This document shows, piece after piece, positions 36,010 to 64,000 of a stretch of DNA of 64,000 bases. Position 1 is the first letter of the stretch. Each line of letters opens with the position of its first letter. The translations under genes were made by a program, and so were the position numbers. Source of the stretch: Pectobacterium sp. A5351. GTDB lineage: Bacteria > Pseudomonadota > Gammaproteobacteria > Enterobacterales > Enterobacteriaceae. Location of the stretch: assembly GCF_028335745.1 (NCBI RefSeq), contig NZ_CP116477.1, positions 2,604,001-2,668,000 of the forward strand, read 5' to 3'. The notes under the pieces were generated by a model that saw nothing but the letters and a program-made list of their open reading frames with translations, had not been told where the DNA came from and did not search any database.

Positions 36010-36726
36010 ATGTTTACTATAACAACGCTCTCTTCGTTACAGACTCCCTTTATCCTCCACGAGGAAAGTGGTTTTGTCACAGATACCCCCACAATGCGCG
36101 TCTGCCTGATACATTTTGATAGCCATTACTATCAGGATGCGCTCTTTGAAATATTGTCAGTCCCTTTCGCACCAATGCTACAGTCAGCAATGATAAAAAG
36201 GCGGGCAGAATATCTGGCAGGGCGCTATGCCGCACAGACGCTACTCAGACAACAAGGCTGCCATGATGCCGTCACTATGGAGCGAAGTCGCGCCCCGAAG
36301 TGGCCAGCAGGATGGTGTGGCAGTATTTCACATACCGATAATCATGCAATTGCAGTGCTTACACGGCAATCCGCAAAGCTGACACCTGGAGTAGATATAG
36401 AGCGACGATGCCCAACAGTCATGAATGAAACCGCACACGTCTTTACCAACCTTCAAGAACGCTCGCTACTTTATCACTGTAATACAGAGTACGAGACGGC
36501 ATTGCTCATTACTTTTTCAGCCAAAGAGAGCCTGTATAAGGCGCTCTACCCACAGGTATTGCAAATGTTCAGTTTCAATGCTGCCACAATCTGTGAACTG
36601 GACGTCCAACGACAGCGCTTTTGCCTGCGGCTCACACAAACGCTTTCCCCGTCGCTCCCGGCGGGGTTCGAACTGTCTGGGCAGTACCTATTTCAGGGTG
36701 ATGACATCATCACCCTGATTACCTGA
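36010..36726 (+). CDS. 4'-phosphopantetheinyl transferase (EntD/Sfp type)
   Basis: 238 residues. Family motifs are in order: KRRAEYLAGRYAAQ, PKWPAGWCGSISHTDNHAIA, PGVDIERR (Mg-binding) and FSAKESLYKALYP. It transfers phosphopantetheine from CoA to the serine of PCP and ACP domains, so it should activate the five carrier domains seen in the facing NRPS/PKS operon. It is the only plus-strand gene at this end of the cluster and converges with the exporter. The ATG at 36010 is used; an in-frame GTG at 35998 is the alternative. Confidence 0.9.
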   Translation: MFTITTLSSLQTPFILHEESGFVTDTPTMRVCLIHFDSHYYQDALFEILSVPFAPMLQSAMIKRRAEYLAGRYAAQTLLRQQGCHDAVTMERSRAPKWPAGWCGSISHTDNHAIAVLTRQSAKLTPGVDIERRCPTVMNETAHVFTNLQERSLLYHCNTEYETALLITFSAKESLYKALYPQVLQMFSFNAATICELDVQRQRFCLRLTQTLSPSLPAGFELSGQYLFQGDDIITLIT

Positions 36727-36796
36727 CATTTTAATTACCTATTGGTAGAGCAACCGGACGTAAGCAAAAAACCAACCTACGTACCGGATGTCAACA

Positions 36797-38029
36797 TTAC
36801 GCAACGGCGTCGGCAACATTCTTGTTCGCTAGCTGTCTGAGCAGCGCGACCAAAAAGCATATCGCAGCCCCTCCCCCTACCAGCGCCAACGAATCAAAAG
36901 CCGTTTTTCCAACGTTTAGATACATCCAACGCGCGGCCTCTACGGCAGCAGCGCTTAAGCTAAGTACCACCATATTGAGTGACGCAGAAACCGTTCCTTT
37001 AGACAGCGAGTTGGAGAACAGAGTAAAACGATAAAGCGTCGGAAAAATCAACCCCGCGCCGAATGCATACAGGCTAAGCCCGACCACCGACCACAGCCAT
37101 AAATGTGGTGCTACGATATCTCCCCCTATCAGAAGCAACAGTCCCGCCAGTTGAAGCGGAACGGTACGCCAGATAAAGCGTGGCGACGCGGGATCGCGGA
37201 TAAAACGCGCAACAGCAATACTGGCAAGAATGACTGCACCAAAGACAGGAACTTGCGTCCAGGCAAATTGTGAGGCATTAAACCCTCCCCGATCGATTAA
37301 GATCAGTGGAGAGATAGCCACCCAGGTCATCACCGGAATATAACAGCAGGAAATCGTCGCCGAGCCAAAGAGGAATGTACGCTCACAGAACACATCACGA
37401 AAATCACGCATCACCTCTCTTACCGGTAGACGCCAACTTGTCCGGTTGCTAATCGTTTCCGGCATAAAGAACAATAATCCTAGCCAGGTCGCCAGTCCCA
37501 TCATGGCAAAGAGACCAAAGAGCATTTTCCAACTGAGCCACTGCATTAAAAATGCACCCGCTAAAGGGCCGATAATCGGCGCGATCAGCACAATAGAAGA
37601 GATGATTGCCATCAGTTTTATGGCTCTGGTTTGGCCGAAGACTTCCTGCACCGTGACATAGCCTACGGTGGAGATAAAACCAATGCTGGTTCCTTGAACA
37701 AAACGGGCCACCAAATACTGTTCCATTGAACTGGTGAACAGCATAACGACGCAGGAAAAAGTGAAAATCAGCGAACCGGTAAGCAGAACAGGTCTGCGCC
37801 CTACCCGATCAGATAATGGCCCAAGTAGCCACTGTAAAGCCATACCACCAGCCATATACAGGCTGACCGACGCCGATGCCATGCCCACATCGGCCTGAAA
37901 AGACGTCACAATATCAATAATTCCGGGCTGTATCATATTAGTGGTTAGATAGGCGGCAAAATCGAAAAGGATCAGGGCAGCAGGAAAGAAAAGCGCCTGA
38001 TTACCTGAAAGAGGACTATTCCGTTGCAT
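36797..38029 (-). CDS. MdfA-like MFS exporter, probable product exporter
   Basis: 410 residues, 12 helices. Recognisable: helix-1 segment [16 protein letters not shown], motif [15 protein letters not shown], motif [18 protein letters not shown], motif [12 protein letters not shown]. It follows the MdfA/MdtM pattern. At the two membrane acidic positions important in MdfA it has Asp for Glu26 and Asn for Asp34. It is the last gene of the operon, 61 bases after the PKS stop, so export or self-protection is its likely job. The start at 38029 (MQRNSPLSG) is preferred because GGGAGATAA precedes it; the open frame starts 15 bases earlier. Confidence 0.82.
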
Positions 38030-38090
38030 TATTTTATCTCCCATAGAGAAAGCCTCTCGTCAAAACATAAGAGGCTCGAATCGGTTCAGG

Positions 38091-41000
38091 TTACTTTTTT
38101 ATTCTGCGGTTCATCCGCTGTTTTGCCAGTTGGTTGACCGATGTACGGGGCGTGTCAGCCTCTAACGGTGGCTCTGGCATCAACGTGCGCTGTAGCGCGT
38201 CATGCAATTTCGCTATGCTGCTATACGTGAACATCATAGATATTGGAAATTCACAGTGCAGGCGCTGTTTCAGTTTTTCATTCATCTGAACCACATCCAG
38301 AGAGGTGGCACCGAGCGCGAAAAAACTGGCGTGTTCATCAAGCTGAGCCAGTCCCAGTTGATGCTGCAACGTTTCGATAATCACATCACGCAAAGTGATA
38401 TCCTTAGTCAGTCCGTCACCGCCTTGCAGCGACGTCGGACCCGCCTCAGACTGACGACGCAGTTCAATATCCATCGCGGAAATAAGCAGGCGCTGCGGGG
38501 GCAAGTTCAAGGAGTGTAAAAAGACGGCTTGCCCTTCCTGATTGGTTAACCCCACAGTCGAAGCATCCATCTTCATACTACGCATGGCCATGCCGGTCTC
38601 CAGCCAACGCTCCCACGCAAGTGAACTGACGGCAAAGGGCAGATCTCGTCTATCGGCCAATGCATCAAGAAAGGCGTTGGCAGCAACGTAGGCCGATTGC
38701 CCAGCCGCACCAGAGTATGAGAGTAAAGAAGAGCACAACAGCAGGCGGCTGAGCGACTTGCCTTCAAAGTAGTCGATCAGGTTGCGCGCGCCCGTCACCT
38801 TCGCTGACATGATCTTGTGGTGTGCCATCTCATCGGGTTGCGCGATCAGCGCCCCCTCATCAGAACCAGCGCAGTGGATCACTATATCGATCGCGCCATT
38901 CTGATTTTCAACAGCAGTCAACGTTTGGAAGAGCGTCTCTCGGTGGGTGACATCACAGCAATGGACCATGACACTTCCGCCGTTTTTTTCAATCGCTTCC
39001 ACATCGTTAATAAATCTGGTTGTGGCCGCGTTGTCGCCGCTCGCCTTAATCGTTCCCCAAAGCTCTCGCTCCGGCCACGGAGTACGCGACAGCAGTACAA
39101 TCCGTGCGGCATACTGTCGCGCCAAACACTGCGCAAGCTGTATGCCGATACCTCCCGTTCCGCCGGTGATAACCACCAGGCCGCCCTGTATTAGCCCGAC
39201 ATCTTGACTCACAGCCTGTTCTTCATGTATAGGTCTGAACCCCGGCAGCCAGATTTGGTTATGTCTGAACGCTTGATGGGGCGCAAGTCCACTATCGACA
39301 ATCTGATGCCACAGCGCCCTCGCGGCCTGCGGTTGCAACAGCGGCTCATAGGCGATATCTACCGTATGACAAGCGTGCTCTGCGTGTTCGTACTGAAGCG
39401 ATTGTACCAACCCTTTAAGTAGGGAGATGCCTTCATGAGTTATCTCATCACCCAGAACATTTTCTATTTCCGGCGTCAGTAAAACAAAGCGTGAGGCGGA
39501 AAGCGCTGCCTGGGTGGTTAATTGCCTGATGCAAACCAGCCATTGCTGATAATGCGGCAGAGGATCGCCGACAAAGTCATCGGCATAAGGTAACAGCAGG
39601 ACAGTATACGAACCGTTCAGTTGCTGCCGCGCCAGGCTGGTTTGATCATCAACTACTATGATTTTTCCCGTTGGTGCCAGATGAGAGATGTGCTGCTGAT
39701 AAGCATCTGCTGCACGTTTACTGACAAGTACCAGGACATTTTCCGGCGCTGCCGGGGCTGTCGCCCGCAGTGGCTCCCGATACCAGACAGGACGATACAG
39801 CAGGGCGTCTTTCCGCGCAGGACTGGTACGCCGGGTTCGGCCGCCGTTAACCATGCTGTCTCTGAGTTGGGTATAGGCACGTTCGGCGAATGCGTATACC
39901 GGCAGTGGGATCAATGCACCAGACACGGTGCCTATCTGCGACCAATTACCGATACCAGCACTGCACCACAGTTTAGCCAACTGTCGGTAAAAACAGCCCA
40001 CATCGTCGTCAGTCTGATTTGGGTGGCGAAGCATATTAACGGCGGTAACCGGCTGCCCCTTCGAGGCATGGAAAAACTTCTGCACACAGCTGGTAAGCGT
40101 ATTGCTCGGCCCCACTTCGACAAACACCAGATCCTGCTGTAGTGCCAGCGTTCGCATACAGGCTAAAAAATCAACTTTATGCCGCTGATGAGCAAGCCAA
40201 TAGGCCGGCTGCATTATTTCGGAGCCGTCATGCCAGCCACCACTCAGGTTAGACAAGAGGGGAACTCGCGGAGCGTTAAACGTCACGGCATCAAGCGCGG
40301 TAGTGTACTCGCTTTGAATTTCATCAATCGCCGCACAATGAAAACTATGCGTGGTCTTGAGTCGACGAACATGAATATGCTGCTCTTGCAGGCGAATTTC
40401 CAGTGCCGAAATATCTTCAGCACTACCGGCAAACACCGTGGCTTCTTCACCATTGACCACCGCTATCTCAAGGCTGCCTTGTAGAAAGGCGGCAGCCTGC
40501 TGCTCCGACAGTGATGCGCTGAGCATCGCGCCTGGCGACATGGTCTGCATCAATATCGCGCGTTGCGTCACCAGAAAGAGCGCATCATGCAGCGAGAAAA
40601 CACCAGCGATGGTCGCCGCGACATATTCTCCCAGACTGTGCCCCAACAGCATATCAGGCTCTATGCCTTTGGCCTGAAGTAATGCCGTGACGGCATACTC
40701 CACGGTAAAAATGGCAAGCTGGATGGTTACAGGGGAAAACAGCGGCGCGGCGTCTGTTGCACTCAAATAGCACTTGACCCGTTCTGCCTCGGTGGCATTC
40801 ATCAGCCCCAGACAGCGGTCAACCTGTTCACGGAACACGGCCTCATGCAGATATAAATCACGTCCCATCGTCTGATATTGTGCTCCCTGCCCCGGAAACA
40901 AAAAGACGACGTGCCGCGCCGTCTGGCTATCCCCCCGGACAAATTCTGCTGCAGAGACAGGTTCATCGCTATTACACACCAGCACCGAGCGGTGGGAAAA

Positions 41001-42494
41001 ATGCTCGCGGCCATGCTGTAGCGTCCAGGAGACATCCGTTATCTGTTTCGGATGATCCGCCAGCCACGCAACCAGACGCTTTTCCATTTCAGCCAGACTC
41101 CATGCCGATTTTGCGGAGAGAGGTAGCAATGTTACCCCAGCATCGACAGGTTCATGACGCTCGCGCGCAACGTACTCTTCCAAAATCACATGCGCATTGG
41201 TTCCTCCGATACCGAACGCGCTAACGCCAGCACGCCTTACCGTCTCACTCTGCCAATCCTGACTCTGGGTGTTGAGATAGAACGGTGAAGAAGCAAGCTT
41301 CAGTTTCGGATTTGGGGTATGGAAGTAATGGTTGGCACACAACTTTTTGTGTTTCAGCATCAGGGCTGCCTTAATTAGCCCCGCCATACCAGCGGCACTA
41401 TCAAGATGACCAATAATGGATTTTACCGAGCCGATAGCGACACGTTGTGCCCTGACATCGTCAAAGACCTGGCTCAGGGCGGCGATTTCAACCGGATCGC
41501 CAAGAGCCGTCGCTGTACCGTGAGTCTCGATGTAACCGATAGTGTTCGCCTCCACCTTAGCCATACTCAGTGCGCGACGAACAACATCCGCCTGCCCATC
41601 GATACTCGGCGCGGTATAACCCACTTTTCTCTCTCCGTCGTTATTCAGCGCTGACCCTTTGATCAACGCCAATATAGGACGTCCCTGCGCCAAAGCGACT
41701 TTTAACGGCTGCAGCACCACTGCGCCAACGCCTTCGCCGCCAACTGTACCGTTTGCCAGCGCATCGAACGGACGGCACACCCCATCAGGTGAAGTGATCA
41801 TTCCTTCCTGATAGAGATAACCTTGCTGATTTGGCGTGCCCAAGGCGGCGGCGGCGACAAGCGCGGTCTGACATTCGCCTAACAACAGTGCCCTTGCTGC
41901 TAAATGGATGGCAGTGAGAGAGGAAGAACAGGCGGTCTGCACGGAGATTGCCGGCCCAGTTAACCCTAGCTTGTACGCCAAACGTGTCGCCGCAAAATCT
42001 TTTTCTACCAGATTAAATGCAGAAAAAAGGCTGGCGCCATCACGGTCACTCTCGTCATATGCAGCCATTTGCCAGTTTAGCTGAGCGCTGGCAGCTAAAT
42101 AACACCCTATCGCGCCCTCATAAACCGAAGGTACAATTCCCGCCGACCCCAGCGCCTCAAAACCGCATTCATGCAATTTACGAATTTGCGGTTCCAGATA
42201 TTCCGCTTCTCGTTGATTATAATTAAAAAATTCAGCATCGAAAGTCAGAGGGTTCTTTATTACACCTTTCGCATTCACATAATATTCACTATGATAATGT
42301 TCGTAGGAAACCCCATTGGCTGCCAGAACCTCATCAGAGAAACGTGAAATACAATCCCGTCCTTGTAAACAATTATCCCAAAAGCTATCCAAATTATCGC
42401 TTTGCGGGAAACGGCAGGAAGCACCGACAATAGCAATCTCTAATCCCGTTAAATGTTGCACACAGGCATTCTCGGAAATCATCTCTTTATTCAT
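38091..42494 (-). CDS. Type I polyketide synthase, KS-AT-KR-ACP
   Basis: 1467 residues. KS (about 17-440) has Cys189 in QTACSSS, His325 in ETHGTA and His363 in IGHLDSAAG. AT (about 528-830) has FPGQGAQY, Ser620 in LLGHSLGEY, and HSFH where malonyl-specific domains have HAFH, so malonyl-CoA is likely. KR (about 1105-1290) has GGTGGIG and the active Tyr in SAYVAAN. ACP has Ser1398 in LGATSLD. There is no dehydratase or thioesterase, so the unit adds two carbons and leaves a beta-hydroxy group. A basic C-terminal tail (KQRMNRRIKK) may dock to a partner. Confidence 0.93.
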   Translation of the reverse strand: MNKEMISENACVQHLTGLEIAIVGASCRFPQSDNLDSFWDNCLQGRDCISRFSDEVLAANGVSYEHYHSEYYVNAKGVIKNPLTFDAEFFNYNQREAEYLEPQIRKLHECGFEALGSAGIVPSVYEGAIGCYLAASAQLNWQMAAYDESDRDGASLFSAFNLVEKDFAATRLAYKLGLTGPAISVQTACSSSLTAIHLAARALLLGECQTALVAAAALGTPNQQGYLYQEGMITSPDGVCRPFDALANGTVGGEGVGAVVLQPLKVALAQGRPILALIKGSALNNDGERKVGYTAPSIDGQADVVRRALSMAKVEANTIGYIETHGTATALGDPVEIAALSQVFDDVRAQRVAIGSVKSIIGHLDSAAGMAGLIKAALMLKHKKLCANHYFHTPNPKLKLASSPFYLNTQSQDWQSETVRRAGVSAFGIGGTNAHVILEEYVARERHEPVDAGVTLLPLSAKSAWSLAEMEKRLVAWLADHPKQITDVSWTLQHGREHFSHRSVLVCNSDEPVSAAEFVRGDSQTARHVVFLFPGQGAQYQTMGRDLYLHEAVFREQVDRCLGLMNATEAERVKCYLSATDAAPLFSPVTIQLAIFTVEYAVTALLQAKGIEPDMLLGHSLGEYVAATIAGVFSLHDALFLVTQRAILMQTMSPGAMLSASLSEQQAAAFLQGSLEIAVVNGEEATVFAGSAEDISALEIRLQEQHIHVRRLKTTHSFHCAAIDEIQSEYTTALDAVTFNAPRVPLLSNLSGGWHDGSEIMQPAYWLAHQRHKVDFLACMRTLALQQDLVFVEVGPSNTLTSCVQKFFHASKGQPVTAVNMLRHPNQTDDDVGCFYRQLAKLWCSAGIGNWSQIGTVSGALIPLPVYAFAERAYTQLRDSMVNGGRTRRTSPARKDALLYRPVWYREPLRATAPAAPENVLVLVSKRAADAYQQHISHLAPTGKIIVVDDQTSLARQQLNGSYTVLLLPYADDFVGDPLPHYQQWLVCIRQLTTQAALSASRFVLLTPEIENVLGDEITHEGISLLKGLVQSLQYEHAEHACHTVDIAYEPLLQPQAARALWHQIVDSGLAPHQAFRHNQIWLPGFRPIHEEQAVSQDVGLIQGGLVVITGGTGGIGIQLAQCLARQYAARIVLLSRTPWPERELWGTIKASGDNAATTRFINDVEAIEKNGGSVMVHCCDVTHRETLFQTLTAVENQNGAIDIVIHCAGSDEGALIAQPDEMAHHKIMSAKVTGARNLIDYFEGKSLSRLLLCSSLLSYSGAAGQSAYVAANAFLDALADRRDLPFAVSSLAWERWLETGMAMRSMKMDASTVGLTNQEGQAVFLHSLNLPPQRLLISAMDIELRRQSEAGPTSLQGGDGLTKDITLRDVIIETLQHQLGLAQLDEHASFFALGATSLDVVQMNEKLKQRLHCEFPISMMFTYSSIAKLHDALQRTLMPEPPLEADTPRTSVNQLAKQRMNRRIKK

Positions 42495-42584: not shown

Positions 42585-45146
42585 TTAGTGACCGAACATC
42601 TTCAGAACACTATCGAATTGTTCAACGGAATCGTGAATATCCGGTGACCCAACATTTTTTACGGCACCGTTATCAATATAATCGGCCTGCAATGCAACCG
42701 TGGTATATTTGAACAAATCGACGACTTCAACATCTCGACTAAACGTATCGCTTAAACGGATACTGAGCTGGGCTAATTTAAAGGACGTTCCACCTAAATC
42801 AAAGAAACTAGCATTAGGGTGAATATTTTCTTTTCGCGTCGCCAATAGCTCAGACCACAAATCACGTATTTTCCTTTCCGTATCACTACCACATGCCACC
42901 ACCCTATCCTGTACAATCACATCACACGGGTCCGGTAATCGACTGTTGTCAATTTTCCCACTGCTGTTTTGCGCAAACTCCGACACGGCAATAAAATAAG
43001 CAGGCACCATATAATCCGGTAAGCGTGCCGCCGTCTCCTGACGTAGCTCGTGTGCATTAAACGCGATATCGGAACAGATATAAGCGATCAAGATAGGGTT
43101 ATCAGCATCACGGGTATTAATCATAACATAAACATCAACCACTTCACTGGCGCTATCATGCTGGCGATATCCCAATAATATATCTTGTATGGCAGTTTCA
43201 ATTTCTCCCAACTCAATACGGTAACCGCTGATTTTTACCTGACTGTCAATTCTCCCGATAAATAATAGCCCGTCGTCGTCAATATATTTCGCCAGATCGC
43301 CCGTCCGGTAATAACGTTTATCACCGATCTGGACAAAAGACTTTTTCGTCAATTCCACAGCATTAATATAGCCTTTTGCCACCCCTTTGCCAGCTATCGC
43401 AATTTCCCCCACCGCCCCACGCGGCAGAATACGCAGGGATGCATCAATCAGCGCAATCTCTTCACCCAACATCGGCGTACCAATCGGCACTGCTGGCGTG
43501 GTAATTGGGTGGTCTACATTAAATTCAAATGAAAGCGACTGCACACAGCACTCTGTCGGGCCGTAAGCGTTAGAGGCATTAGGCACCGAATCCCAGCATT
43601 CAGCGAAAGCCTGCCAGTTTTTACGCTCCAGTTTTTCACCACCGATCATCAAATGCATCACCGGACAGGGCTTACGCAGCCCTTTCATCTGCAAACGAAT
43701 CATACGCAAATGCGTAGGCGTACAGTCTGCAATATGAATCTCCCTTTCTTGCCAGAACCTTACGATTCCGGCACCGTCTTTCCTGATATTATCGGGAACG
43801 ATATGCAGCGTGTGGCCAAGCAGCAACGCCGGATACATCTGCTGTACCGACGCATCAAAACTCAACGCGGATATCACAGACACATTCAGCTCGCACGGAT
43901 AGTGCCGATAGACTTTGTATTCCAATCCCTGAACCAGATTTATCACGGCACCGTGCGGCACCTCCACGCCTTTGGGATTGCCCGTCGATCCAGAAGTGAA
44001 AATGATGTAAGCGGAATCCTGACCATTGAGATCGGGCAAAGTATACGCATCCCGATCTTCAGACACAGATTGCAGTTCGTCGTAGGTTATCTGTTGACGA
44101 TCGCCTAACGCCAGCGGCGTATCGGCGGCAACCACGGTCAGGCGGATATCCGCGGTAATCAGCACATGCTGCTTTCGACTATCGGGCCAGTGGATATCAA
44201 ATGGGCAATAGCGCCCCCCAGCCTTAAGCACGGCGAAGATCGCAACAATCGCTGCGCAGGTGCGCGGCATATGTATACCGATACTGTCCCCTTTGTTAAT
44301 ACCCGCAGCATGAAGCTGCGCCGCACCGTTCGTGCTCAGCGCATCCAGTTCAGCGTAGCTCAGTTGTGCAACGTCGCAACTTACCGCAGTCTTATTCGGG
44401 TAGCGTTCAACCTGCTGCCGAAAATGATCGAGAATTGATGCGTCTTCCGCCGTGTTTGTCGGCGCCTCTCCCGCGCTAAACAGGAAAGGCTCGGAAATCT
44501 CAAGTTGGGAAATAGGCAAGGGCGAACGCATCTGACTCGCCCAGTCCTGCACCAGACGCATCAGCGCATTACTATAATCCGCACCCAGCCTCGAACCGAG
44601 CTCGCAGGAAATAAGCCCTTCATCGCAGTTGAATATCATGTACGTCAAACTATGCTTATAGAGATCGTCCGGTATGTGTTGACACCCTTTTAACACCACC
44701 GCCAGAGCAAAAGTTGTCGGGCATTCAAATAGCGGCTGCAACGCCGTAACACCATAAGGAAGCTGCTTTTGCATACTGTTTGAGGTTGTGACAATCACCT
44801 CTTTGAAGGTGCATTCCGGGCTACACTGAACGGGCAGACAAACCGTTTTTCCTACGTCCTCATCATCGATATAATTACCAGTCAGCAGTGCGGCACTACG
44901 GTTGTAAGATATCGCCGCCTGTGCGCAGGCGGCCAACGTAGCGAGAAGCAGGCTCAGGCGTTTATCCGAGCCGTTGGCGATAGAAATGAGCGCTGACGAG
45001 GATTCATCAAGTAAAGAGAAACGCTGCGTGCTAATCGAACGCTCGGAATAATAGGAAACATCCGGCACTAAACCAGAATAAGTAGATATAATTTCGTTCC
45101 AGTTAGCCGCCACGGCCTCATTTACTGCTATATAATTGTCAGACAT
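42585..45146 (-). CDS. NRPS module: half condensation domain, A (Gln predicted), PCP
   Basis: 853 residues from the ATG at 45146 (AAGGA eight bases upstream). The first ~230 residues look like only the C-terminal half of a condensation domain (LPYGVTALQPLFECPTTFAL); no HHxxxDG is present. The A domain follows with FTSGSTGNPKG, NAYGPTECC, YRTGDL, GRIDSQVKISGYRIELGEIE and NSSGKID. By alignment to GrsA its pocket reads D-A-Q-D-M-G-A-V-Q-K, nearest to the known Gln code DAQDLGVVDK. A PCP with FFDLGGTSFKL ends the protein. Condensation must be done by another protein, perhaps the C domain ending the PKS at 49928-55708. Confidence 0.9.
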   Translation of the reverse strand: MSDNYIAVNEAVAANWNEIISTYSGLVPDVSYYSERSISTQRFSLLDESSSALISIANGSDKRLSLLLATLAACAQAAISYNRSAALLTGNYIDDEDVGKTVCLPVQCSPECTFKEVIVTTSNSMQKQLPYGVTALQPLFECPTTFALAVVLKGCQHIPDDLYKHSLTYMIFNCDEGLISCELGSRLGADYSNALMRLVQDWASQMRSPLPISQLEISEPFLFSAGEAPTNTAEDASILDHFRQQVERYPNKTAVSCDVAQLSYAELDALSTNGAAQLHAAGINKGDSIGIHMPRTCAAIVAIFAVLKAGGRYCPFDIHWPDSRKQHVLITADIRLTVVAADTPLALGDRQQITYDELQSVSEDRDAYTLPDLNGQDSAYIIFTSGSTGNPKGVEVPHGAVINLVQGLEYKVYRHYPCELNVSVISALSFDASVQQMYPALLLGHTLHIVPDNIRKDGAGIVRFWQEREIHIADCTPTHLRMIRLQMKGLRKPCPVMHLMIGGEKLERKNWQAFAECWDSVPNASNAYGPTECCVQSLSFEFNVDHPITTPAVPIGTPMLGEEIALIDASLRILPRGAVGEIAIAGKGVAKGYINAVELTKKSFVQIGDKRYYRTGDLAKYIDDDGLLFIGRIDSQVKISGYRIELGEIETAIQDILLGYRQHDSASEVVDVYVMINTRDADNPILIAYICSDIAFNAHELRQETAARLPDYMVPAYFIAVSEFAQNSSGKIDNSRLPDPCDVIVQDRVVACGSDTERKIRDLWSELLATRKENIHPNASFFDLGGTSFKLAQLSIRLSDTFSRDVEVVDLFKYTTVALQADYIDNGAVKNVGSPDIHDSVEQFDSVLKMFGH

Positions 45147-45171
45147 GTTATTTATCCTTATTAACGATTCA

Positions 45172-45633
45172 TTATATCGCATTCCATTCCATGGTTATTT
45201 CTACCTCACCAGTATGTTCATCTACGGATTTATTCGATTCCGTAAAACCATGCTTAAGATAAAAATTTCTTGCCGCCATATTTTTCTCATACACCGTAAG
45301 TGATAACCGGTCTCTTTTCTCAAATGCATTCGCTAATAATGCCTGACCGACACCTTTGCCATGATAGTCAGGCAGTAAAAAAATAGCGGCTAACGTGTTA
45401 TCTACCAGACTGATAAACCCGATAACCTTCCCTTTATATTTCGCAACCATGGTTTCAGCAGCGGGAATATATTCATTTCGCATATCGTCTTTGCAGGCAT
45501 GCCAGAAATTTCTATCAACAAAATCATGGCAGGCCAGTGAAGTCGTATACCAGACATCAATAATTTCCTGCATTTCTTTCTCATCATTGTGAAATGCAGA
45601 AAAATAAATTTCATCCAACAATTTTCTGTTCAT
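45172..45633 (-). CDS. GNAT-family N-acetyltransferase
   Basis: 153 residues with the GNAT fold: acetyl-CoA loop LPDYHGKGVGQALLANAF (Q/RxxGxG/A pattern) and VYEKNMAARNFYLKHGFTES. It resembles the YiaC/YjaB group of small acetyltransferases. Its place inside the NRPS/PKS operon, with 15- and 25-base gaps, suggests it acts on the product, either as a tailoring step or as self-protection as in zwittermicin producers (ZmaR). Which one is not shown by the sequence. Confidence 0.85.
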   Translation of the reverse strand: MNRKLLDEIYFSAFHNDEKEMQEIIDVWYTTSLACHDFVDRNFWHACKDDMRNEYIPAAETMVAKYKGKVIGFISLVDNTLAAIFLLPDYHGKGVGQALLANAFEKRDRLSLTVYEKNMAARNFYLKHGFTESNKSVDEHTGEVEITMEWNAI

Positions 45634-45648
45634 AGCAGCCCCATTATT

Positions 45649-48600: not shown

Positions 48601-48786
48601 ACGCAGCGCCTGATGCTCAGTAACCACGCGATTCCACGCCTCGTTCAGCCGTTCTTCATCCACCGTACCCAGCAAGCTCAGGGTAAAATTGGTGACATAG
48701 ACGTCATCATTATCTTTTTCAAGGGAATGAAACAGCATTCCTTCCTGCACAGGCGTTAATGAGACAATATTAAAATTCTCAAACAT
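45649..48786 (-). CDS. NRPS module C-A(Asn predicted)-PCP
   Basis: 1045 residues. C domain (about 1-430) starts VSLTPVQEGMLFHSL and has the active HHICMDG (His138/His139, Asp143). A domain (about 455-860) has FTSGSTGEPKG, NEYGPTEATVG, YKTGDL and GRKDNQVKLRGYRIELDEI. The pocket residues read D-L-T-K-V-G-E-V-G-K, one conservative change from the Asn code DLTKLGEVGK. PCP Ser971 lies in FFDLGANSIRL. There is no epimerase or thioesterase. The basic tail SRRDRMVSRRSKMNK may be a docking element. Confidence 0.93.
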   Translation of the reverse strand: MFENFNIVSLTPVQEGMLFHSLEKDNDDVYVTNFTLSLLGTVDEERLNEAWNRVVTEHQALRTIYRWTGLSQPVQIIFAQRKNNIEFRHDPTDVIKAGQTLNVSARIKNTEIDLETNPIKVFLYSLSAEKYLLHIQYHHICMDGWSLGLLLTKLWDYYDRPGTVRVQPELDYERYIQHLNTVKQSEEARSYWRSAVCLEAAISLPTQKNASHRTLNRIDRQLDSDVMCKLEGYCKANGFTMAHAIYAAWSILLAKYNDAGDICFGTTVSGRDVGFAGEIEDSIGLYIQTPPLCVNGLSGEDTLASVMQKIKDITLARESHKAYPLADIQAIHNIRHPLFDTIVVIENYPLAKRLRQLSTHVDITDYSIEEKTNFDLCLEVNLLETALLRLSYNTEKYPHYVIANGLKHLEQVLDAIVNNDQLTLASLCLLDEQEYQRLVVDFNHRPPVFSRHTHLIDAWQEVVVLHHDSIALCQQDRRVTYAELDALANSVAAQLQARGVRHQELVAIQRRSGVMTIAILIAVAKLGAVYVPLDISTPEERVRSIMSNGIRHLITQDDPDFRDELVQTVDGRPTVAYSSDDLLYTIFTSGSTGEPKGVMLEHRTVMNYIQWAIQRYHPVGQRAVYPLFTSLAFDLTVTSIWCPLIGGGTINIIDKDAFNALQDVAALPGLTNIKITPSQLSLLNSLMNDKTRSLSTFVLGGEQLESKLCREVTDKLPVGARIFNEYGPTEATVGCMIWQYARGSDTPAVAIGVPIDNAKIYILDRFMQPQPAGIPGELYIGGDVLARGYLGRPDLTADKFVTHPVDHSRIYKTGDLAFFNEQGYVEYIGRKDNQVKLRGYRIELDEIAARIKSYEEGSNAVVVIRTINGEEQLVAYYVSPSGMKEMLLRQFLSAHLPSYMIPTVFQPVSEIKLTINGKVDLSTLPEINVVSERIDLTTSSYKEKVVEIFSSVLEIKEIDLHASFFDLGANSIRLLRITSLLNGILPRQIKIVDFFTYPNIANLLFYIEFGEEHVPQQVNQSETLSRRDRMVSRRSKMNKSVNLPN

Positions 48787-48805: not shown

Positions 48806-49135
48806 TTAAATAGTGTTAGACTGATAAACCTCATGCGCATTCTCTACACCTATAAATATATTTGTGATTTTTAGATAACTTTCAGACAGCACTTTGCTAT
48901 TGCGCATATCCTGCAACATACAGTAGTAATCCTTCAGACTGGCGGTCTCGATAATAATTATATCCTGAAAATCAGCAGAAAAACCTTCAGCATCGGCGGT
49001 TCTCAAGCGAATGCTATGCTGATATTTTTCAATCACCTCTGGCAGAGACTCATTTTGTAATTCCATTCTTTGTGCACGCGTTAACGCATTCCATTTATCA
49101 TTAAACGTCAGGGTCCAGACAATAATATATTCCAT
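48806..49135 (-). CDS. Darcynin-like small protein
   Basis: 109 residues MEYIIVWTLTFNDKWNALTR ... ADAEGFSADFQDIIIIETAS ... KDYYCMLQDMRNSKVLSES. The pattern (Y-x-I-x-x-x-L-x-x-x-x-x-W at the start, F-DAE-F-x-x-x-x-D-I-x-x-x-E-T in the middle) matches the darcynin family, predicted to have a ferredoxin-like alpha/beta fold as in stress-responsive barrel proteins. No reaction is known. It lies between the thioesterase and an NRPS with 5- and 19-base gaps, so it is part of the pathway operon. Confidence 0.7.
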   Translation of the reverse strand: MEYIIVWTLTFNDKWNALTRAQRMELQNESLPEVIEKYQHSIRLRTADAEGFSADFQDIIIIETASLKDYYCMLQDMRNSKVLSESYLKITNIFIGVENAHEVYQSNTI

Positions 49136-52900: not shown

Positions 52901-55708
52901 AGTATGAGAAGCGTCAGAAGAAAGACGCACCAGTAATGCCGCTCCGGCAGCAGAAGGGATGCTCGCCATGTTCAAGGGCTGCTGCTTCCACGCATGCTGA
53001 TATAACCATTCCGCTCTGTTTTCTTTGCGCACAACGGAGGGTGAGTTGGCAGTGGTTCCAGGCGTTGCAGAGAAAATATTCAGGAAGTCCGCTTTTTCCG
53101 GCCAGAACAGGCTGCGGTCAAAAGCATATCCCGGTATTGCCACACGCCGACAATCCTGATGGAAACGCACCCGATCCCACGCAACCCCAGCGCCTTGCTG
53201 CCAGATTTTCCCAAGCGCCACCCAGAATGAGTAACGCGAACCCTGTACCCTGCTCTCCTCAGGCAACAGCGTAATCAGCCGTGCAGAATCCTCCTGAGCC
53301 ACGTAGCGTCTCGTGAGATTGAGCAGATCGCGCCCCACACCGACCTCAATAAACAGGCAGCCGCGATAGTTTTCCACCAGATACTCAATGCCTTTTACAA
53401 AGCATACGGGGCTTTCCGCCTGCGCAGTCCAATACTCCACCGACACGGCCTGCTCCGCCGTAAGCGGTTCGCCAGTCACGGACGAGATCAATGGAATCGA
53501 CGGTGCGTTGAGCGTAAAGCGGGAGATCGTCGCCTGAAGCGCGCCGTTGATCTGCTTCATGGCAGGTGAATGGGCTGCATGGCTGGATTTGATCGGCGCT
53601 GTCATAATACGTTTATTTTTCAACAGTACCGCGAAAGCGTTGATATCTTCTTCTGCACCTGACACAACGCAGGAGTCTTTGTTGTCGATCGCCACCGAGA
53701 TACCGTCAGAGCACAGCTCTGCAACATCCGCCACCGGCAGCGGCACACTCAACATCGCGCCCGGCGGCAGCGCCTGCATCAACTCGCCACGGGTAACCAC
53801 CAACTCTATCGCATCTTGCAGGGTAAATACCCCCGCCACCGTTGCTGCGACCAGTTCGCCAAAGCTGTAACCAAGCAGGAGGGAAGGCTGGACATCCACA
53901 TCAATCAGGCAACGCGCCAGAGCATATTCCACAATAAAGATCGCCGGCTGTGCATAGCGAGTACTTTGCAGCGCGTCGCCTTCCGAACTACCGAACCATT
54001 TATCTCGCAGCGAGCCTCCTAAACGCTCAGAGGCCAGCGCCAGACAATCATCCACAATAGCGCGAAATGCATCGTGAGATTCATACAACTCCAGCGCCAT
54101 ATTGCGATACTGTGCCCCCTGTCCAGGGAACAAAAAAACAACGTGTTGCTCACCGCTGGCCATTTTTTTCACCGTACCCAGCGGCCGATGCAGCGATCTG
54201 ATAGCTTCTTCACGACTCCCGGCAACGATGGCTTTTCTGAAGCGATGATGAATACGCCCTTCCTGCAATACAAACGCGACATCAGACAACCGGATATCGG
54301 GCCGCGACTGCAAACTATCCGCCAGATTTTGCTGATTATCTTGCAATGCGCGCGGCGTCTCTGCCGAAATCAGCAGCACCTTAGGCAAGGAATCGTCATC
54401 CGGCGGCAAGGCGATGGGTTCATCCGCTTCTGCCAAAATAACATGCGCATTGGTTCCACCAATACCGAATGAACTGACCCCCGCGATACGTTTTTTATCC
54501 TCCGCCACCACCCAATCCATTGGCCGCTCAACCACGCGAAACGGCGTGTCTTCCAGATGCAATTTGTCATTGGGTTGGGTGTAATGCAGCGAGGGGGCTA
54601 ACCGTTTATGCTGCAATGACATCACTGTCTTAATGACGCTGGCCACACCCGCCGCTTCATCAAGATGGCCGATGTTACTTTTTACCGACCCAATCATGCA
54701 GACGTGTTCACTACCGCCGAACACGCGGTTCAGGGCGGTAACCTCTATCGGATCGCCTATCTCGGTCGCGGTGCCATGACACTCGATGTAGGTGATATCG
54801 CGCGGTTCCACGCCCGCTAACATTTGCGCGTTAGCGATGACCTCCGACTGCCCCTGTACGCTGGGCGCGGTAAACCCGGGTTTACGCTGTCCATCGTTAT
54901 TTATCGCAGAACCTTTAATAACAGCATGAACATGGTCGTTGTCCTCAATCGCCTGATCCAACGCCTTGAGCAACAGGATCCCCGCGCCGCTCCCGCCTAC
55001 CGTGCCGTTGGAATCCTTATCAAAAGGACGGCAATGCCCATCAGCCGATCGTACCATCCCCTGTTGATAACGGTAGCCAGACACCTGTGGGAGCGTCAGT
55101 GATACACCGCCCGCTAACGCCATATCGCAGTCGCCACTCAGAATCGATTGGCAAGCGGTATGGATAGCGACCAGCGAGGTCGAACACGCAGTATGGATGG
55201 CCATCACCGGCCCGCGTAATCCCAACCGATAAGCGGTGCGCGTAATCAGTGATTCCGGCAAATTCCAGTTTACGATGTCGAACGTTTCCGCAGGTGAAAG
55301 GCGACGTTTCATCAACGCCGAAATCCAGGGAATATTCGAGGCAGCCCCGGCGAAAAGCCCCATCCTCCCACCATGGTCTCGCCCGGTATAAGCGGCATCC
55401 TCCAGCGCTAACCAACAGCACTCATGCAGCAATCGACACTGAGGATCCATTTTATCCACTTCGTCTTTCAGATAACCGAACAGATGATTATCAAACTGCT
55501 TATAGTCTTCCAGTATCGCTTTGGCCGCCACAAAATCGGGATGATCAATGTCATCTTCCACATACCCGTTTGCCAATAACTCAGTGCGGGAAAAATGTCG
55601 GATGCTCTCTTTTCCCGTAATAAGATTCTGCCAAAATGCCTCTGGCGAATTTGCCTCAGGAAACCGACAGCCCATACCAATGATGGCAATATCAAATGAA
55701 TCGCTCAT
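49928..55708 (-). CDS. Hybrid PKS-NRPS, KS-AT-KR-ACP-C
   Basis: 1926 residues. KS (about 3-430) has Cys175 in HTACSTS, His in ECHGTATEIG and IGHLDEAAG. AT has FPGQGAQY, an unusual GYSFGE instead of GHSxG, and HAAH at the selectivity site. KR has GGAGFIG, with YAAAS where the active-site YxxxN is normal. ACP carries DLGGNSLKA. A terminal condensation domain of ~450 residues (TWPLSPGQRRLYLQQM, LHHIISDGLS) has no A-PCP of its own, so it must use an amino acid carried by another protein. It starts 21 bases downstream of the Asn starter NRPS, its probable donor. Confidence 0.92.
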   Translation of the reverse strand: MSDSFDIAIIGMGCRFPEANSPEAFWQNLITGKESIRHFSRTELLANGYVEDDIDHPDFVAAKAILEDYKQFDNHLFGYLKDEVDKMDPQCRLLHECCWLALEDAAYTGRDHGGRMGLFAGAASNIPWISALMKRRLSPAETFDIVNWNLPESLITRTAYRLGLRGPVMAIHTACSTSLVAIHTACQSILSGDCDMALAGGVSLTLPQVSGYRYQQGMVRSADGHCRPFDKDSNGTVGGSGAGILLLKALDQAIEDNDHVHAVIKGSAINNDGQRKPGFTAPSVQGQSEVIANAQMLAGVEPRDITYIECHGTATEIGDPIEVTALNRVFGGSEHVCMIGSVKSNIGHLDEAAGVASVIKTVMSLQHKRLAPSLHYTQPNDKLHLEDTPFRVVERPMDWVVAEDKKRIAGVSSFGIGGTNAHVILAEADEPIALPPDDDSLPKVLLISAETPRALQDNQQNLADSLQSRPDIRLSDVAFVLQEGRIHHRFRKAIVAGSREEAIRSLHRPLGTVKKMASGEQHVVFLFPGQGAQYRNMALELYESHDAFRAIVDDCLALASERLGGSLRDKWFGSSEGDALQSTRYAQPAIFIVEYALARCLIDVDVQPSLLLGYSFGELVAATVAGVFTLQDAIELVVTRGELMQALPPGAMLSVPLPVADVAELCSDGISVAIDNKDSCVVSGAEEDINAFAVLLKNKRIMTAPIKSSHAAHSPAMKQINGALQATISRFTLNAPSIPLISSVTGEPLTAEQAVSVEYWTAQAESPVCFVKGIEYLVENYRGCLFIEVGVGRDLLNLTRRYVAQEDSARLITLLPEESRVQGSRYSFWVALGKIWQQGAGVAWDRVRFHQDCRRVAIPGYAFDRSLFWPEKADFLNIFSATPGTTANSPSVVRKENRAEWLYQHAWKQQPLNMASIPSAAGAALLVRLSSDASHTGCLYNRLQAHYSTSFRVRLGKETRIDLSEESQLRAGHQDDFIHFFEQLKAHKTVLDNVIIDGVAMDCEGDVSLCAILHLLQAYRLQKVDIKKITLLINHGVTVSHEPTLCPTASALMAIATVVRQEFPETGCQAIDVGDVATDCPPTALVADIVSVTSEPVAWRAHRRWVRDFVPYQSFGIPDGAVLKPQGTYLLVGGAGFIGKTFCTHLAKNYQANLIVTSRSTPPRDEIWDDIELNATSLTLLQADVSDEEAITRLVSQAVGRHGRIDGIFYLAGITGEASLRSIIETDDNYISQHLTAKKEGIAICDRALAEQDYDFCLVVSSLAPILGGLGFYAYAAASAWLDAFVTQRNRTSKRRWTLVNWDGWEVAARTEVHHKVGSSLAHLLISREEGVALLPEVIRYAERDALIISTADIKARLAQWTLSQQETSGEGSTSEDACSERPDLDNVLVAPRNAMETQLVSIWQDFLHISPLGIDDDFFDLGGNSLKAITLLSQVHKHCHIDVPLTRFFKHPTIRELAEYAKDHATAANYLEIKPAEPQDTWPLSPGQRRLYLQQMFNKNSVAYNETVAFRIVGNLDVDRFNETLYQLMQRHESLRTTIVLVNGEPRQYCHPSPIAELHQLQIDREECSESHLQAEVKKLIKPFNLHQDVLIRLLLIKLKVNDYLFFLDLHHIISDGLSQDIFVRDFLTIYQGNTLPPLHVQYKDYTMWQRQFATSKEVEAQKTFWIDKLQPLPELPLPLDVARGNEGDERGGRLYFRIDRHTTERLEQLYCGDGVTRFMVFLSTYYLLLADVSHQTRFAIGTPMLGRPQRELQDVIGIFVNLLPIPCDFHGEMSFREIVNAMKEVAITVFDHADIQFEQIVQALGLQPRQNRLPIFDTVFSYMNIGMADFELPGLKLSRFALQEDNSRFDLAMLVKEIEGDFEFSFEYKRALFRDETIAGFITRYIKLLEQVISSADVPISEYISKATASKVDHKGIELTDFNF

Positions 55709-55729
55709 AATTTAACGTCCAGTTAAAAA

Positions 55730-60196: not shown

Positions 60197-60253
60197 ACTC
60201 TTATCCCTTGAAAATAACCTGACTGCACCATGTTCGACGAATGACTATTTGCC

Positions 60254-61663
60254 TTACTTCCCGGACCTGCGGCGATAAAGCGATTGCACAAAACGCACAA
60301 AATAGAAAATAAAGAAAACCAGCAGCAGCGAATAAAACATCCAGAAGCTCGTCGGCAACCATATTGATAACGTTCGCCACGAAAGACCGGCCACCAAAGA
60401 GGGGAAACTCAGTAAAAGAAAAATCAACACGGCGAAAACACACGTTACCGTAGCTGAAGCAAAATAACCGATTCGTCCCCATTGCCGCGTTTTCCCCCGC
60501 TTCAGCCTAATGAATACAGCGGCGAAAATGAGTAATAGCGCGGCGCTACCAACGATAAAAAACCGATCGTAGGTATCAAATAGGGTTAAATCTTTAATCT
60601 CGTCTGGCGGCTGAACAGATTCGCCTTGATTCAATTGGCGCATCACCTGTTTACCAATCTCAAAGGTAATATTGCTGTTAACATTTGCCATCACGGCCGT
60701 TGCCACGCCGGTCGCGGTGTCCACGGAGACATAGCTTGAAAACGAGGGATTCATGCCAGTATGAAAAAACAGGCTGCCTTGTTTAAACCAGCCGAACGAA
60801 TAGCGCGTTTTTTCATCTTCACCAGTATCAACGTCAAAGTGCGTTGAAAAAGCGGTTTCTCTGGCTTGTTGCAGCGCCGGGCTGACACCGCCGCGGGTTA
60901 AAAACTGTAACCAATGCAGCATATCCCGCGCACTGGTTTGAATATAACCGGCAGGTACATTAGAGAAAACAAACGGCGCATCGTACGGTCTGGCTCGCAG
61001 GAAAGCGATCTGGTTCCCCTGCGCTTTATGGTCGGCAATGGCAACGGTTGCCTGCTCCATCGCCAGCGGCGTTAATATCTCCTCTTGTAATAATTGCGCA
61101 TAAGTGCGACCTGATACCTTCTCCATCATTCGTGCGGCAATAGCATAATTAGCCGTTGCGTAAGCGAATTTTTCTCCCGGTTTGGCATCAAGATTAATCA
61201 AATCGATATGATCAACCACCTGCTCAAGGGAATATTCAGGATGGGTATAAAGCAGGTTAATGCTGTTGAACGGAATACCGGAGGTATGGTTCAGTAATTG
61301 TGAAAATGTTATATCTTCTTGGTTTGATTGATATCGCGTTTTCATGGAAGTCAATACTGAATTTATCGTAGTATTCGCAGAGATAACTCCCGCATCCATT
61401 AATTTAGCGGCCAACATTCCGGTAAACGATTTACTTACTGAAGCCAGCTCAAATAATGTTTTATCATCTAGCGTCTCCCCCCCTCCCTGAGGTTTATTGG
61501 ATAGCAACATAATGTTGCTTTGTTTATTTTTATCTATCGTCACCAAAACCAGTTCGGGTATATGACCGTAGTCCATGTACTGCATGATGCTATTTTTTGA
61601 TATCTCATCGGCGGCGGCCAACGAGCAAAATAGCAGCAGCATACTTGCAATCAAGCACCGCAT
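60254..61663 (-). CDS. ClbP-type D-Asn prodrug-activating membrane peptidase
   Basis: 469 residues. Signal peptide MRCLIASMLLLFCSLAAADE, then a serine beta-lactamase-like (S12) domain: Ser75/Lys78 in FELASVSKSF, Tyr168 in KFAYATANYA, HTG in LFFHTGMNPSF. Three hydrophobic helices at the C-terminus (~20-25 residues each, ending FVRFVQSLYRRRSGK) fix it to the inner membrane with the enzyme in the periplasm. This is the layout of ClbP, XcnG and ZmaM, which cut N-acyl-D-Asn from an inactive precursor during export. I use the ATG at 61663 (GGAGAG just upstream, clean signal peptide); the open frame starts 27 bases earlier. Confidence 0.88.
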   Translation of the reverse strand: MRCLIASMLLLFCSLAAADEISKNSIMQYMDYGHIPELVLVTIDKNKQSNIMLLSNKPQGGGETLDDKTLFELASVSKSFTGMLAAKLMDAGVISANTTINSVLTSMKTRYQSNQEDITFSQLLNHTSGIPFNSINLLYTHPEYSLEQVVDHIDLINLDAKPGEKFAYATANYAIAARMMEKVSGRTYAQLLQEEILTPLAMEQATVAIADHKAQGNQIAFLRARPYDAPFVFSNVPAGYIQTSARDMLHWLQFLTRGGVSPALQQARETAFSTHFDVDTGEDEKTRYSFGWFKQGSLFFHTGMNPSFSSYVSVDTATGVATAVMANVNSNITFEIGKQVMRQLNQGESVQPPDEIKDLTLFDTYDRFFIVGSAALLLIFAAVFIRLKRGKTRQWGRIGYFASATVTCVFAVLIFLLLSFPSLVAGLSWRTLSIWLPTSFWMFYSLLLVFFIFYFVRFVQSLYRRRSGK

Positions 61664-61776
61664 ACTCTCTCCATTAAATATCGATTCCATCTGTGTTGCG
61701 ATACGGCAAACAACAATTCGGTCGTTATCGTTCCTGAGGTGGGCAGAGTGCTAGATGCAGCACTCTGCCTGTAACG

Positions 61777-64000
61777 TTACATCAGGCTATCAATGAGACA
61801 CTTCAGGGAGTGTCTTAACCCTGTCAACGCTGCGCTGACGCCTTGCTCATCAACATTACTCAGTATGTCTCGCGCCTGGCGCAATTCAGATAACGGTTCA
61901 ATCAGCGTTGATGAACTCGCGGTCGTGGACTGCCTCACTAAACGCTCAAGCAATACCAATTGAGACACCCAGCGCTGGATAAACCGCTGGCGCGCTTCTA
62001 CCGGCATCGCCATTAACCGTTCAGGTTCTTCCAGCAAACGGTCTATCGCTTTCATCCCGATATAATGCTGTTTTCCCGTCTGGTCGAGAATAGCAGCACT
62101 GGCCTGCAAATCAGACAACGTGCGCGTGAGCGTCGCTGTCACCAATTCCTCCTGCGGAGGAAATGTGCCGCTGTGCGACAACGATATCACCAGCCAGGGA
62201 CGGGATTTCTGATAGACTTCGCTGGCCTGCATAAAATCGAGCCCCCGAAAGCCGATCGCCGTCTGCGAAAATTCCTGTTCGCTAATTTCGCCAAAATAGC
62301 CGAAGCTGCCATCGTAAACCTGATAGCCGCCCTCGGTGAGCCCCACCAAAACGAAGGCATGTGGGATCAGTTCGTCCTCATCAACGGTAATATCGTCAAA
62401 TAGCGGTCGTTGCAGATACTCGCTCTTACTCAGGCCATAGGAGGGAGAAAACGGCAAGTAATAATCGGAACCCGTGATAATGACCAGTCTGCCCTGATCC
62501 AATTCACTGAGGCAGTAAGCGCGATAGTCGGTCAGATCCGCAAGGAAACGTTTTTCAAACGAGAAGGAGAAGGTTTGCATGAGTGTGGGCCAGCCGAACA
62601 ATTCGCCATAATGCTGCTGATTGCTCAGTTGCATCCCACCGCTTTCTTCTGTCAATGTCAGCCCCAGCAACAGACTGCCATCCGCAGCACGCATGACACA
62701 GTCAGAGCAACTCAGCCCATAATTATGCTTCAGCGCTTCTCTGGCGGCGGAATAAATACAGCTCGCACTGATGTCGTAAAACTCCGGTTTAAAACCCGTG
62801 TTGTATCGCCATGCTGCCTCGGATGAGGCCTCGGAAGCGCCGACCTGCCGTTGGAGCTGATGCAAGCTCGTTTGTGAAAGCAGCATATTGATATTCAACG
62901 CCATGCCTGCCGATTTCGCTTTGGCAATAACCTGTACTGCCGACAGAGAATTTCCCCCGAGAGAAAGGAAGTCATCCTCATCACGGATATCACTCATTCC
63001 AAGTACGTTCTGCCAAATGGCTTTCAATGTCGGCGCTGCGCCCCTCTGTTCATCATTCGGGCGTCCGACAAAAGCGGTGGTGTTGCCAGCAAAAATAGCC
63101 TGTAGCAATTTCACATCCGCCGGATAGACTTTCCCTCGCAGCGGCTGCGGCGGTATGTTGATCGGAGGCGTAGAAGAGAGCGGCAGGTGACTGTGCCAAT
63201 CAACGTTAACTCGCAGCATCGACAACATCCCCAGTGTCTCCATTAGCGAGCTGGTTTCATCCCGCCCCGCACCGATTAGAGAGAGGCAAATATGGCTTTC
63301 CCGACAGTCCGCATGAGATTTCACCAGCGATGTCAGCCCCTTACCCGGCCCCACTTCAAGGAATAGCGTGTTCTTATCTGCCAGCAACAGCCGAAGCCCT
63401 TCGGTAAACCGCACCGGCTCACGAATCTGGCGCACCCAGTAATCCGCATTGGTGAGCGTTTTAGTACCGCATAGCTGGCCGGTAACGTTAGAGACCACCG
63501 GCACGCTCGGTTCAGCAAAAGTTATCGTCTCCAGCACTTGCGCATAGTCCGCCAGAATCGGATCCATAGTCCGCGAGTGGAAGGCACGGTTAACCTTCAA
63601 GTACCGGGTTTTGATATCTCTCTGTGCGCAGCGTTGCGCAAACGTGCTGATTTCCTCTTCAGACCCCGCAATCACACACAGCCCGCTGCTATTATCCAAC
63701 GCCACATCCAGGCTGCCACAGAGCAAACTTTCTGCCACATCCACCGGACACATGACCAACAGCATAGCGGCCTGTTCTGTCGCATTCATCAGACGCCCAC
63801 GTGCGCAGACCATGCGGACCGCATCGTCGAAGGAAAATACCCCCGCCACCGCTGCCGCCACGTATTCTCCCAGACTATGGCCGATCATCGCCGACGGCTT
63901 AACTCCCCAGGCGGCTAATAGTTGCACCAACGCGTACTCAACGATGAAAATTATTGGTTGAGCATATTCAGTATTGAACCAGTTCGTATCGTCATCGTCG
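61777..64000 (-). CDS. Polyketide synthase, ...AT-ACP with C-terminal C39/BtrH-like domain (5' part outside window)
   Basis: The frame is open to the window edge (AQPIIFIVEYALVQLL). Residues counted from the GTG at 63930: AT with GHSLGEY (Ser19) and RAFH at the selectivity site; ACP Ser328 in FLSLGGNSLSA; then ~340 residues that are no usual PKS domain. That part has Cys391 (SASCIYSAAREALKHNYGLS), a LDQGRLVIITGSDYYLPF segment, His524 (IPHAFVLVG) and Asp540 (YQVYDGSFG), the pattern of C39-like/BtrH_N domains that take acyl groups from carrier proteins. A helical tail of ~120 residues ends the protein. KS must lie beyond 64000. It is the most upstream gene of the operon seen here. Confidence 0.8.
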   Translation of the reverse strand, partial: DDDDTNWFNTEYAQPIIFIVEYALVQLLAAWGVKPSAMIGHSLGEYVAAAVAGVFSFDDAVRMVCARGRLMNATEQAAMLLVMCPVDVAESLLCGSLDVALDNSSGLCVIAGSEEEISTFAQRCAQRDIKTRYLKVNRAFHSRTMDPILADYAQVLETITFAEPSVPVVSNVTGQLCGTKTLTNADYWVRQIREPVRFTEGLRLLLADKNTLFLEVGPGKGLTSLVKSHADCRESHICLSLIGAGRDETSSLMETLGMLSMLRVNVDWHSHLPLSSTPPINIPPQPLRGKVYPADVKLLQAIFAGNTTAFVGRPNDEQRGAAPTLKAIWQNVLGMSDIRDEDDFLSLGGNSLSAVQVIAKAKSAGMALNINMLLSQTSLHQLQRQVGASEASSEAAWRYNTGFKPEFYDISASCIYSAAREALKHNYGLSCSDCVMRAADGSLLLGLTLTEESGGMQLSNQQHYGELFGWPTLMQTFSFSFEKRFLADLTDYRAYCLSELDQGRLVIITGSDYYLPFSPSYGLSKSEYLQRPLFDDITVDEDELIPHAFVLVGLTEGGYQVYDGSFGYFGEISEQEFSQTAIGFRGLDFMQASEVYQKSRPWLVISLSHSGTFPPQEELVTATLTRTLSDLQASAAILDQTGKQHYIGMKAIDRLLEEPERLMAMPVEARQRFIQRWVSQLVLLERLVRQSTTASSSTLIEPLSELRQARDILSNVDEQGVSAALTGLRHSLKCLIDSLM

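Follow-up and report, generated by a model that had tools for sequence, protein, structure and literature searches.

Gene content of the locus and its known counterparts

A hybrid nonribosomal peptide synthetase (NRPS)/polyketide synthase (PKS) cluster lies in the 64,000-nucleotide stretch of Pectobacterium sp. A5351 analysed here (the window, G000:C2:2604001-2668000, from a genome of 4.41 Mb on two contigs). An earlier note on this DNA had described, within such a cluster, an acyl-D-Asn starter NRPS adjoining an S12 peptidase of the ClbP type, and a C-A-PCP-E NRPS and a peptidase of this kind are indeed neighbours (Table 1). Every gene named in that note is present, on the minus strand except for that of a 4'-phosphopantetheinyl transferase (PPTase), and the plant-pathogen character that it attributed to the genome is borne out by pectate lyases and an asparaginase. 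The L-asparaginase scores 678 bits against 1zcf, its best match, and 563 bits against 5f52, entries that come from Pectobacterium and Dickeya respectively; Dickeya, a candidate host in view of solanimycin and zeamine, was set aside on these scores. We also read the sequence beyond the window end, where positions are given as window coordinates; the cluster continues to about 75859 with a 3380-aa PKS and four genes of hydroxymalonyl-acyl carrier protein (ACP) type. The two KR-type PKS modules counted earlier both exist, but the count was too low because the largest PKS extends beyond the window. All of the large genes are open over their full length, and active-site motifs could be located, by pattern or alignment, in the KS, AT, KR, carrier, C/E and thioesterase domains.

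All 14 genes compared are colinear in Xenorhabdus bovienii T228 and Photorhabdus namnaonensis PB45.5. The common order is 3-hydroxyacyl-CoA dehydrogenase, FkbH, ACP, acyl-CoA dehydrogenase, large PKS, peptidase, starter NRPS, a PKS ending in a C domain (PKS-C), thioesterase, darcynin-like protein, C-A-PCP NRPS, GNAT acetyltransferase, A-PCP NRPS and PKS. Chance is excluded as an explanation because 14 homologues keep one order in two other genera. Protein identity over these genes is 41-72% to X. bovienii T228 and 52-79% to P. namnaonensis; it is higher to Photorhabdus for 13 of the 14, the GNAT protein being equal within 0.3 points.

The gene names used below were assigned by order, function and length. 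The X. bovienii Moldova amicoumacin cluster is listed with 16 proteins in Table 1 of PMC5055758, and 14 of these have a counterpart here; the other two are AmiQ, which had no match, and AmiP (46 aa), which was not looked for. Common to both are a split amiI, a fused amiL-M, the acetyltransferase AmiS, the darcynin-like AmiR and four hydroxymalonyl-ACP genes, and several of the lengths given there agree closely with ours (AmiA 1488/1488, AmiF 352/352, AmiI-2 1924/1926, AmiR 107/109 and AmiS 152/153). Besides the starter NRPS, the peptidase, AmiI-1 and AmiI-2, the features of the X. bovienii layout present in our cluster include the hydroxymalonyl set AmiE-H, AmiK, the fused AmiL-M, AmiD, AmiR and AmiS. 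It differs in having a major facilitator superfamily (MFS) gene instead of the MATE-type AmiQ, and PPTase and LuxR genes lie on the same island. The amicoumacin cluster of B. subtilis 1779, likened here by its description in the excerpted text of PMC4894447, has the same eight-module logic, acyl-D-Asn cap, hydroxymalonyl unit and AmiB peptidase, but its gene split and order differ. Three genes of the B. subtilis cluster, amiC, amiN and amiO, are missing from that of X. bovienii (PMC5055758, excerpt).

The earlier note had held that the remaining domain set was unlike known systems; in fact it fits the X. bovienii amicoumacin cluster gene for gene. The comparison of the whole cluster past 64000 that the note had called for found a cluster with a known product, matching in layout and, at 41-72% protein identity, not "near-identical".

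Xenocoumacin-type clusters also belong among the closest systems known. Those of X. koppenhoeferi DSM 18168 and other Xenorhabdus share the hydroxymalonyl genes, large PKS, peptidase, PKS-C, darcynin-like protein, A-PCP NRPS and last PKS. In X. koppenhoeferi an upstream NRPS region of only 23-27% similarity replaces the two separate NRPS genes, and the thioesterase and GNAT protein had no match at its locus at E<=1e-4, although four other Xenorhabdus xenocoumacin-type loci do carry the thioesterase. In clusters of that type arginine is the second residue. A xenocoumacin-type assignment, with arginine second and detoxification by XcnM/XcnN, is highly improbable for our cluster: its second A domain reads Asn, the starter and second NRPSs are two genes, both for Asn, instead of a single XcnA, and a GNAT gene is present. 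No desaturase or saccharopine dehydrogenase Pfam family occurred among the scanned proteins, the xcnMN sequences themselves not having been searched. In favour of that assignment, the X. bovienii cluster has homologues of 11 xenocoumacin genes (PMC5055758, excerpt), and it is those genes that occur here.

Table 1. Features of the cluster and its island, in window coordinates
Feature	Position	Strand	Basis
In-window share of the 46.9-kb island	33937-64000		
Sfp-type PPTase, on island	35998-36726	+	Pfam 4PPT_N 3.4e-21, ACPS 1e-12
MFS transporter, MdtM-like	36797-38044	-	NCBIfam MdtM 603 bits, below 700-bit cut-off
AmiK-like PKS, KS-AT-KR-ACP	38091-42494	-	domains, homology
AmiJ-like NRPS: 240-aa N-terminus, A (DAQDMGAVQ, leucine expected), PCP	42585-45182	-	domains, code, homology
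AmiS-like GNAT acetyltransferase	45172-45633	-	52% identity to same-place gene of X. bovienii T228
AmiI-1-like NRPS, C-A(Asn)-PCP	45649-48786	-	domains, code, homology
AmiR/XcnJ-like protein, darcynin family	48806-49135	-	Pfam E 2e-09
AmiD-like stand-alone thioesterase	49141-49884	-	domain, homology
AmiI-2-like PKS (PKS-C), KS-AT(GYSFGE/HAAH, hydroxymalonyl expected)-KR-ACP-C	49928-55708	-	domains, motifs, homology
AmiA-like starter NRPS, C-A(Asn)-PCP-E, 1488 aa	55730-60196	-	domains, code, homology
AmiB-like acyl-D-Asn peptidase, S12, ClbP type	60254-61690	-	homology, residues, hydropathy
AmiL-M-like 3380-aa PKS: KS-ACP, KS-AT-KR-ACP, KS-AT-ACP, 346-aa end	61777-71919 (in window 61777-64000)	-	domains, homology
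Acyl-CoA dehydrogenase, hydroxymalonyl-ACP set	72180-73325 (beyond window)		
ACP, hydroxymalonyl-ACP set	73649-73921 (beyond window)		Pfam PP-binding E 0.0081, under cut-off
FkbH protein, hydroxymalonyl-ACP set	73937-74995 (beyond window)		
3-Hydroxyacyl-CoA dehydrogenase, hydroxymalonyl-ACP set	75017-75859 (beyond window)		
DDE transposase gene	76572-77765	+	
LuxR-type regulator gene, on island	78214-78921		

Assembly line, peptidase and proposed product

Eight modules can be read from the domains: the starter NRPS; C-A-PCP; KS-AT-KR-ACP-C; A-PCP; KS-AT-KR-ACP; and, in the large PKS, KS-ACP, KS-AT-KR-ACP and KS-AT-ACP. The A-domain code positions, taken from GrsA, give DLTKVGEVG for each of the first two A domains, a code for Asn; X. 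bovienii T228 has the same residues save one V/I change. The second Asn module and the darcynin-like protein of the earlier note were both recovered. The first 240 residues of the AmiJ-like NRPS matched no Pfam family, and 31-40% identity is kept there in Photorhabdus and Xenorhabdus. The module count equals that of the B. subtilis amicoumacin pathway (PMC4894447, excerpt).

The third A-domain code, DAQDMGAVQ, is identical in four genomes (this one, X. bovienii T228, P. namnaonensis and X. koppenhoeferi). It is not the textbook code for leucine and resembles those for Gln, and a Gln module had been proposed before. That proposal is probably wrong because feeding data from B. subtilis place leucine at the third amino-acid position of amicoumacin (PMC4894447, excerpt). 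Our code equals that of the expected leucine module in the Xenorhabdus and Photorhabdus clusters compared, and on the feeding data and homology together the third module probably takes leucine. It is unlikely that the line yields a new congener, with another third amino acid or other tailoring, instead of amicoumacin A. The unconventional code and the identity of only 41-72% to X. bovienii T228 argue for one, but the same code recurs in X. bovienii and in a xenocoumacin-type cluster, and the gene run contains no additional tailoring gene that could be recognised.

Among the four AT domains, only that of PKS-C combines GYSFGE with HAAH, and this holds in each of the four genomes. In the remaining three AT domains the motif is GHS(I/L)GE, accompanied here by HAFH, RAFH and HSFH. 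We take the PKS-C motifs as a sign of an unusual extender, and they fit hydroxymalonate, the expected substrate.

The best PDB match of the peptidase is ClbP (7mdc, E 1.1e-46). By hydropathy our peptidase has a signal-type stretch and, towards the C-terminus, three hydrophobic ones, in line with the signal-bearing, three-helix protein described earlier. In alignment with ClbP, E92 (E81 here), S95 (S84), K98 (K87), Y186 (Y177), N331 (N314) and W466 (W444) are kept, while S188 is T179 and H257 is N244. In ClbP, S95, K98 and Y186 are indispensable, and N331A and W466A abolish activity; among prodrug peptidases N331 is strictly conserved, position 188 is Ser or Thr and position 257 is His or Asn (PMC9889268, excerpt). 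As judged by alignment, the enzyme keeps the catalytic and D-Asn-binding residues or has substitutes known in prodrug peptidases. The likeness to colibactin ClbP takes in the S12 fold, these residues and three membrane helices, but the homology is only about E 1e-46 and K240 and F462 differ. The acyl-D-Asn prodrug design proposed earlier is supported by both homology and residues.

We put the probability at about 0.9 that this is an amicoumacin-type cluster of the X. bovienii layout, carried on a 46.9-kb island, with an amicoumacin A-like product proposed. The starter NRPS would make N-acyl-D-Asn, and the second NRPS module would add Asn. One PKS module would then add hydroxymalonate, which three enzymes would provide on an ACP of its own, and the C domain of this PKS would join leucine. 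Four malonate units would form the dihydroisocoumarin. Once the masked product had crossed the inner membrane, the peptidase, periplasmic and anchored in the membrane, would cut off the acyl-D-Asn cap to give an amicoumacin A-like ribosome inhibitor. The cluster is predicted to be expressed, and the AmiS-like acetyltransferase may serve as self-protection. If it is made, such a ribosome-blocking antibiotic would arm a plant soft-rot bacterium against its competitors in rotting tissue.

Several points weigh against this reading. With identity to X. bovienii T228 of no more than 41-72%, the product may be a modified one, and T228 is the strain compared, whereas the published cluster is that of strain Moldova. 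The Photorhabdus MATE protein (AmiQ) had no match in the genome at E<=1e-5 in a search lacking a positive control. Finally, ClbP K240 is Q227 here and F462 is T440. In ClbP, K240A severely lowers activity (PMC9889268, excerpt), but Gln occupies the K240 position in all four aligned peptidases.

Export and chain release

A MATE gene stands between the large PKS and the peptidase in five of five named amicoumacin-type loci (four Photorhabdus and X. bovienii T228). In our cluster the gap between these two genes is 86 bases. AmiQ is an accessory, found in neither the B. subtilis nor the X. nematophila pathway (PMC5055758, excerpt). On the strand of the last PKS gene, and 46 bases after it, comes an MdtM-like MFS gene that ends the operon. 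Searched at E<=1e-60, the 24 other genus genomes gave no match to its protein, and the MFS, PPTase and LuxR proteins had no match in the stretches of the relatives' clusters. The MFS protein is a candidate for exporting the prodrug in place of AmiQ. The absence of the MATE gene offers a natural experiment, in that continued export of the product would mean that the prodrug travels through some other transporter, probably the MFS protein. Four named Photorhabdus genomes carry an amicoumacin-type locus that includes a MATE gene; for P. akhurstii, partial similarity to xenocoumacin has been reported (PMC9491552, excerpt).

A decayed or silent island that has lost its prodrug exporter and makes no active product is quite improbable. 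The absent MATE gene and a transposase gene upstream would fit decay, but all large genes are open at full length with the checked motifs present, and the MFS gene follows the last PKS gene closely on its strand.

The 346 residues that end the 3380-aa PKS have no recognised domain. They are the BtrH-like end of the earlier note, at the C-terminus of this PKS, and the Pfam match is weak: for BtrH_N, 5 of 10 members match at E<=1, the best at 0.012, and the member here has E 0.26, under the cut-off. In this end Cys20, His153 and Asp169 are shared by all 10 aligned sequences, which come from amicoumacin- and xenocoumacin-type clusters and include four from close Photorhabdus species. A profile search of PDB sequences returned nothing bearing on a likeness to BtrH, and the AlphaFold model was poor (mean pLDDT 65.5, pTM 0.60), with residues 116-154, which include His153, below 50. 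One reading, less likely than not, is that this end acts as a cysteine acyltransferase with a distant likeness to BtrH, freeing the chain and forming the closed dihydroisocoumarin; in that case the stand-alone thioesterase would serve for editing. The published B. subtilis scheme, as excerpted from PMC4894447, lists no such release domain. Conservation of the 346-residue end makes the question of chain release directly testable.

Probable insertion site, distribution and neighbouring genes

Two genes flank the segment, one MipA-like on the left (94% identical in the relative G004) and one SulP-type on the right (95%). In G004 they are separated by 0.99 kb, with their orientation and order unchanged. 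DNA similarity to G004 ends at 33936 and returns at 80816, leaving 46.9 kb extra here (33937 to about 80815) in place of about 0.8 kb of G004. The segment is probably an acquired island. Gain by its own lineage is the simplest reading because the peptidase is missing from all 24 other genomes of the genus; loss of the segment in G004 is possible. G+C content shows no contrast (49.2% in the cluster, 48.9% in the left flank).

An empty site of this kind was seen in G004 and in no other genome. The left flank gene occurs in 14 of 25 genus genomes and the right in 24 of 25, our own included. In seven others (G003, G005, G008, G011, G014, G021 and G024) the flank genes are about 15-35 kb apart in reversed order; the five that remain have them far from each other, close to contig ends or split between contigs. 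An insertion hot spot, considered in view of the spacing in those seven relatives, was dropped given the reversed order.

The peptidase is rare. In searches that counted our own genome, and in which the family, order and class samples were drawn from larger groups, it was found in 3 of 59 relatives at E<=1e-20 and, at that threshold, in 0 of the 24 other same-genus genomes. At E<=1e-40 it was found in 5 of 392 family genomes and 2 of 295 order genomes, and a profile of four peptidase sequences matched 1 of 369 class genomes at E<=1e-60, our own. Three family members have the homologous cluster: P. namnaonensis PB45.5 (G347), X. bovienii T228 (G417) and X. koppenhoeferi DSM 18168 (G294). A fourth match, G182, has a peptidase of 29-30% identity in a different layout. 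The alignment of the four peptidases, searched against named genomes, found ten loci, four in Photorhabdus and six in Xenorhabdus, and plasmid searches gave only distant matches, to NRPSs and serine hydrolases.

Among the papers listed from the open-licence literature searched, none reported an amicoumacin or xenocoumacin cluster for Dickeya or Pectobacterium in its title or displayed abstract. Amicoumacin producers include Bacillus and Nocardia (PMC5055758, abstract). The pathway is a known one whose host is apparently new and whose transporter has apparently changed. If the product is made, amicoumacin production would reach a third niche beyond Bacillus/Nocardia and the insect-pathogenic symbionts.

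Elsewhere in the genome, a second NRPS region (G000:C2:496148-506089) accounts for four of eight condensation-domain matches and has homologues in many genus genomes. Two same-genus genomes, G018 and G023, have NRPS reading frames of about 7050-8580 residues that are unrelated to the amicoumacin-type cluster. Near the left end of the island lies a CcdA/CcdB toxin-antitoxin pair (34684-35237, minus strand; Pfam CcdB 2.2e-31, CcdA 6.7e-27). Further to the left is a three-gene ABC-3C-like set (26708-29342, minus strand) comprising a DUF2326 protein, an MC6 middle component and a CTD10 protein; the DUF2326 protein also matches PADLOC PDC-M68B (E 2.6e-47).

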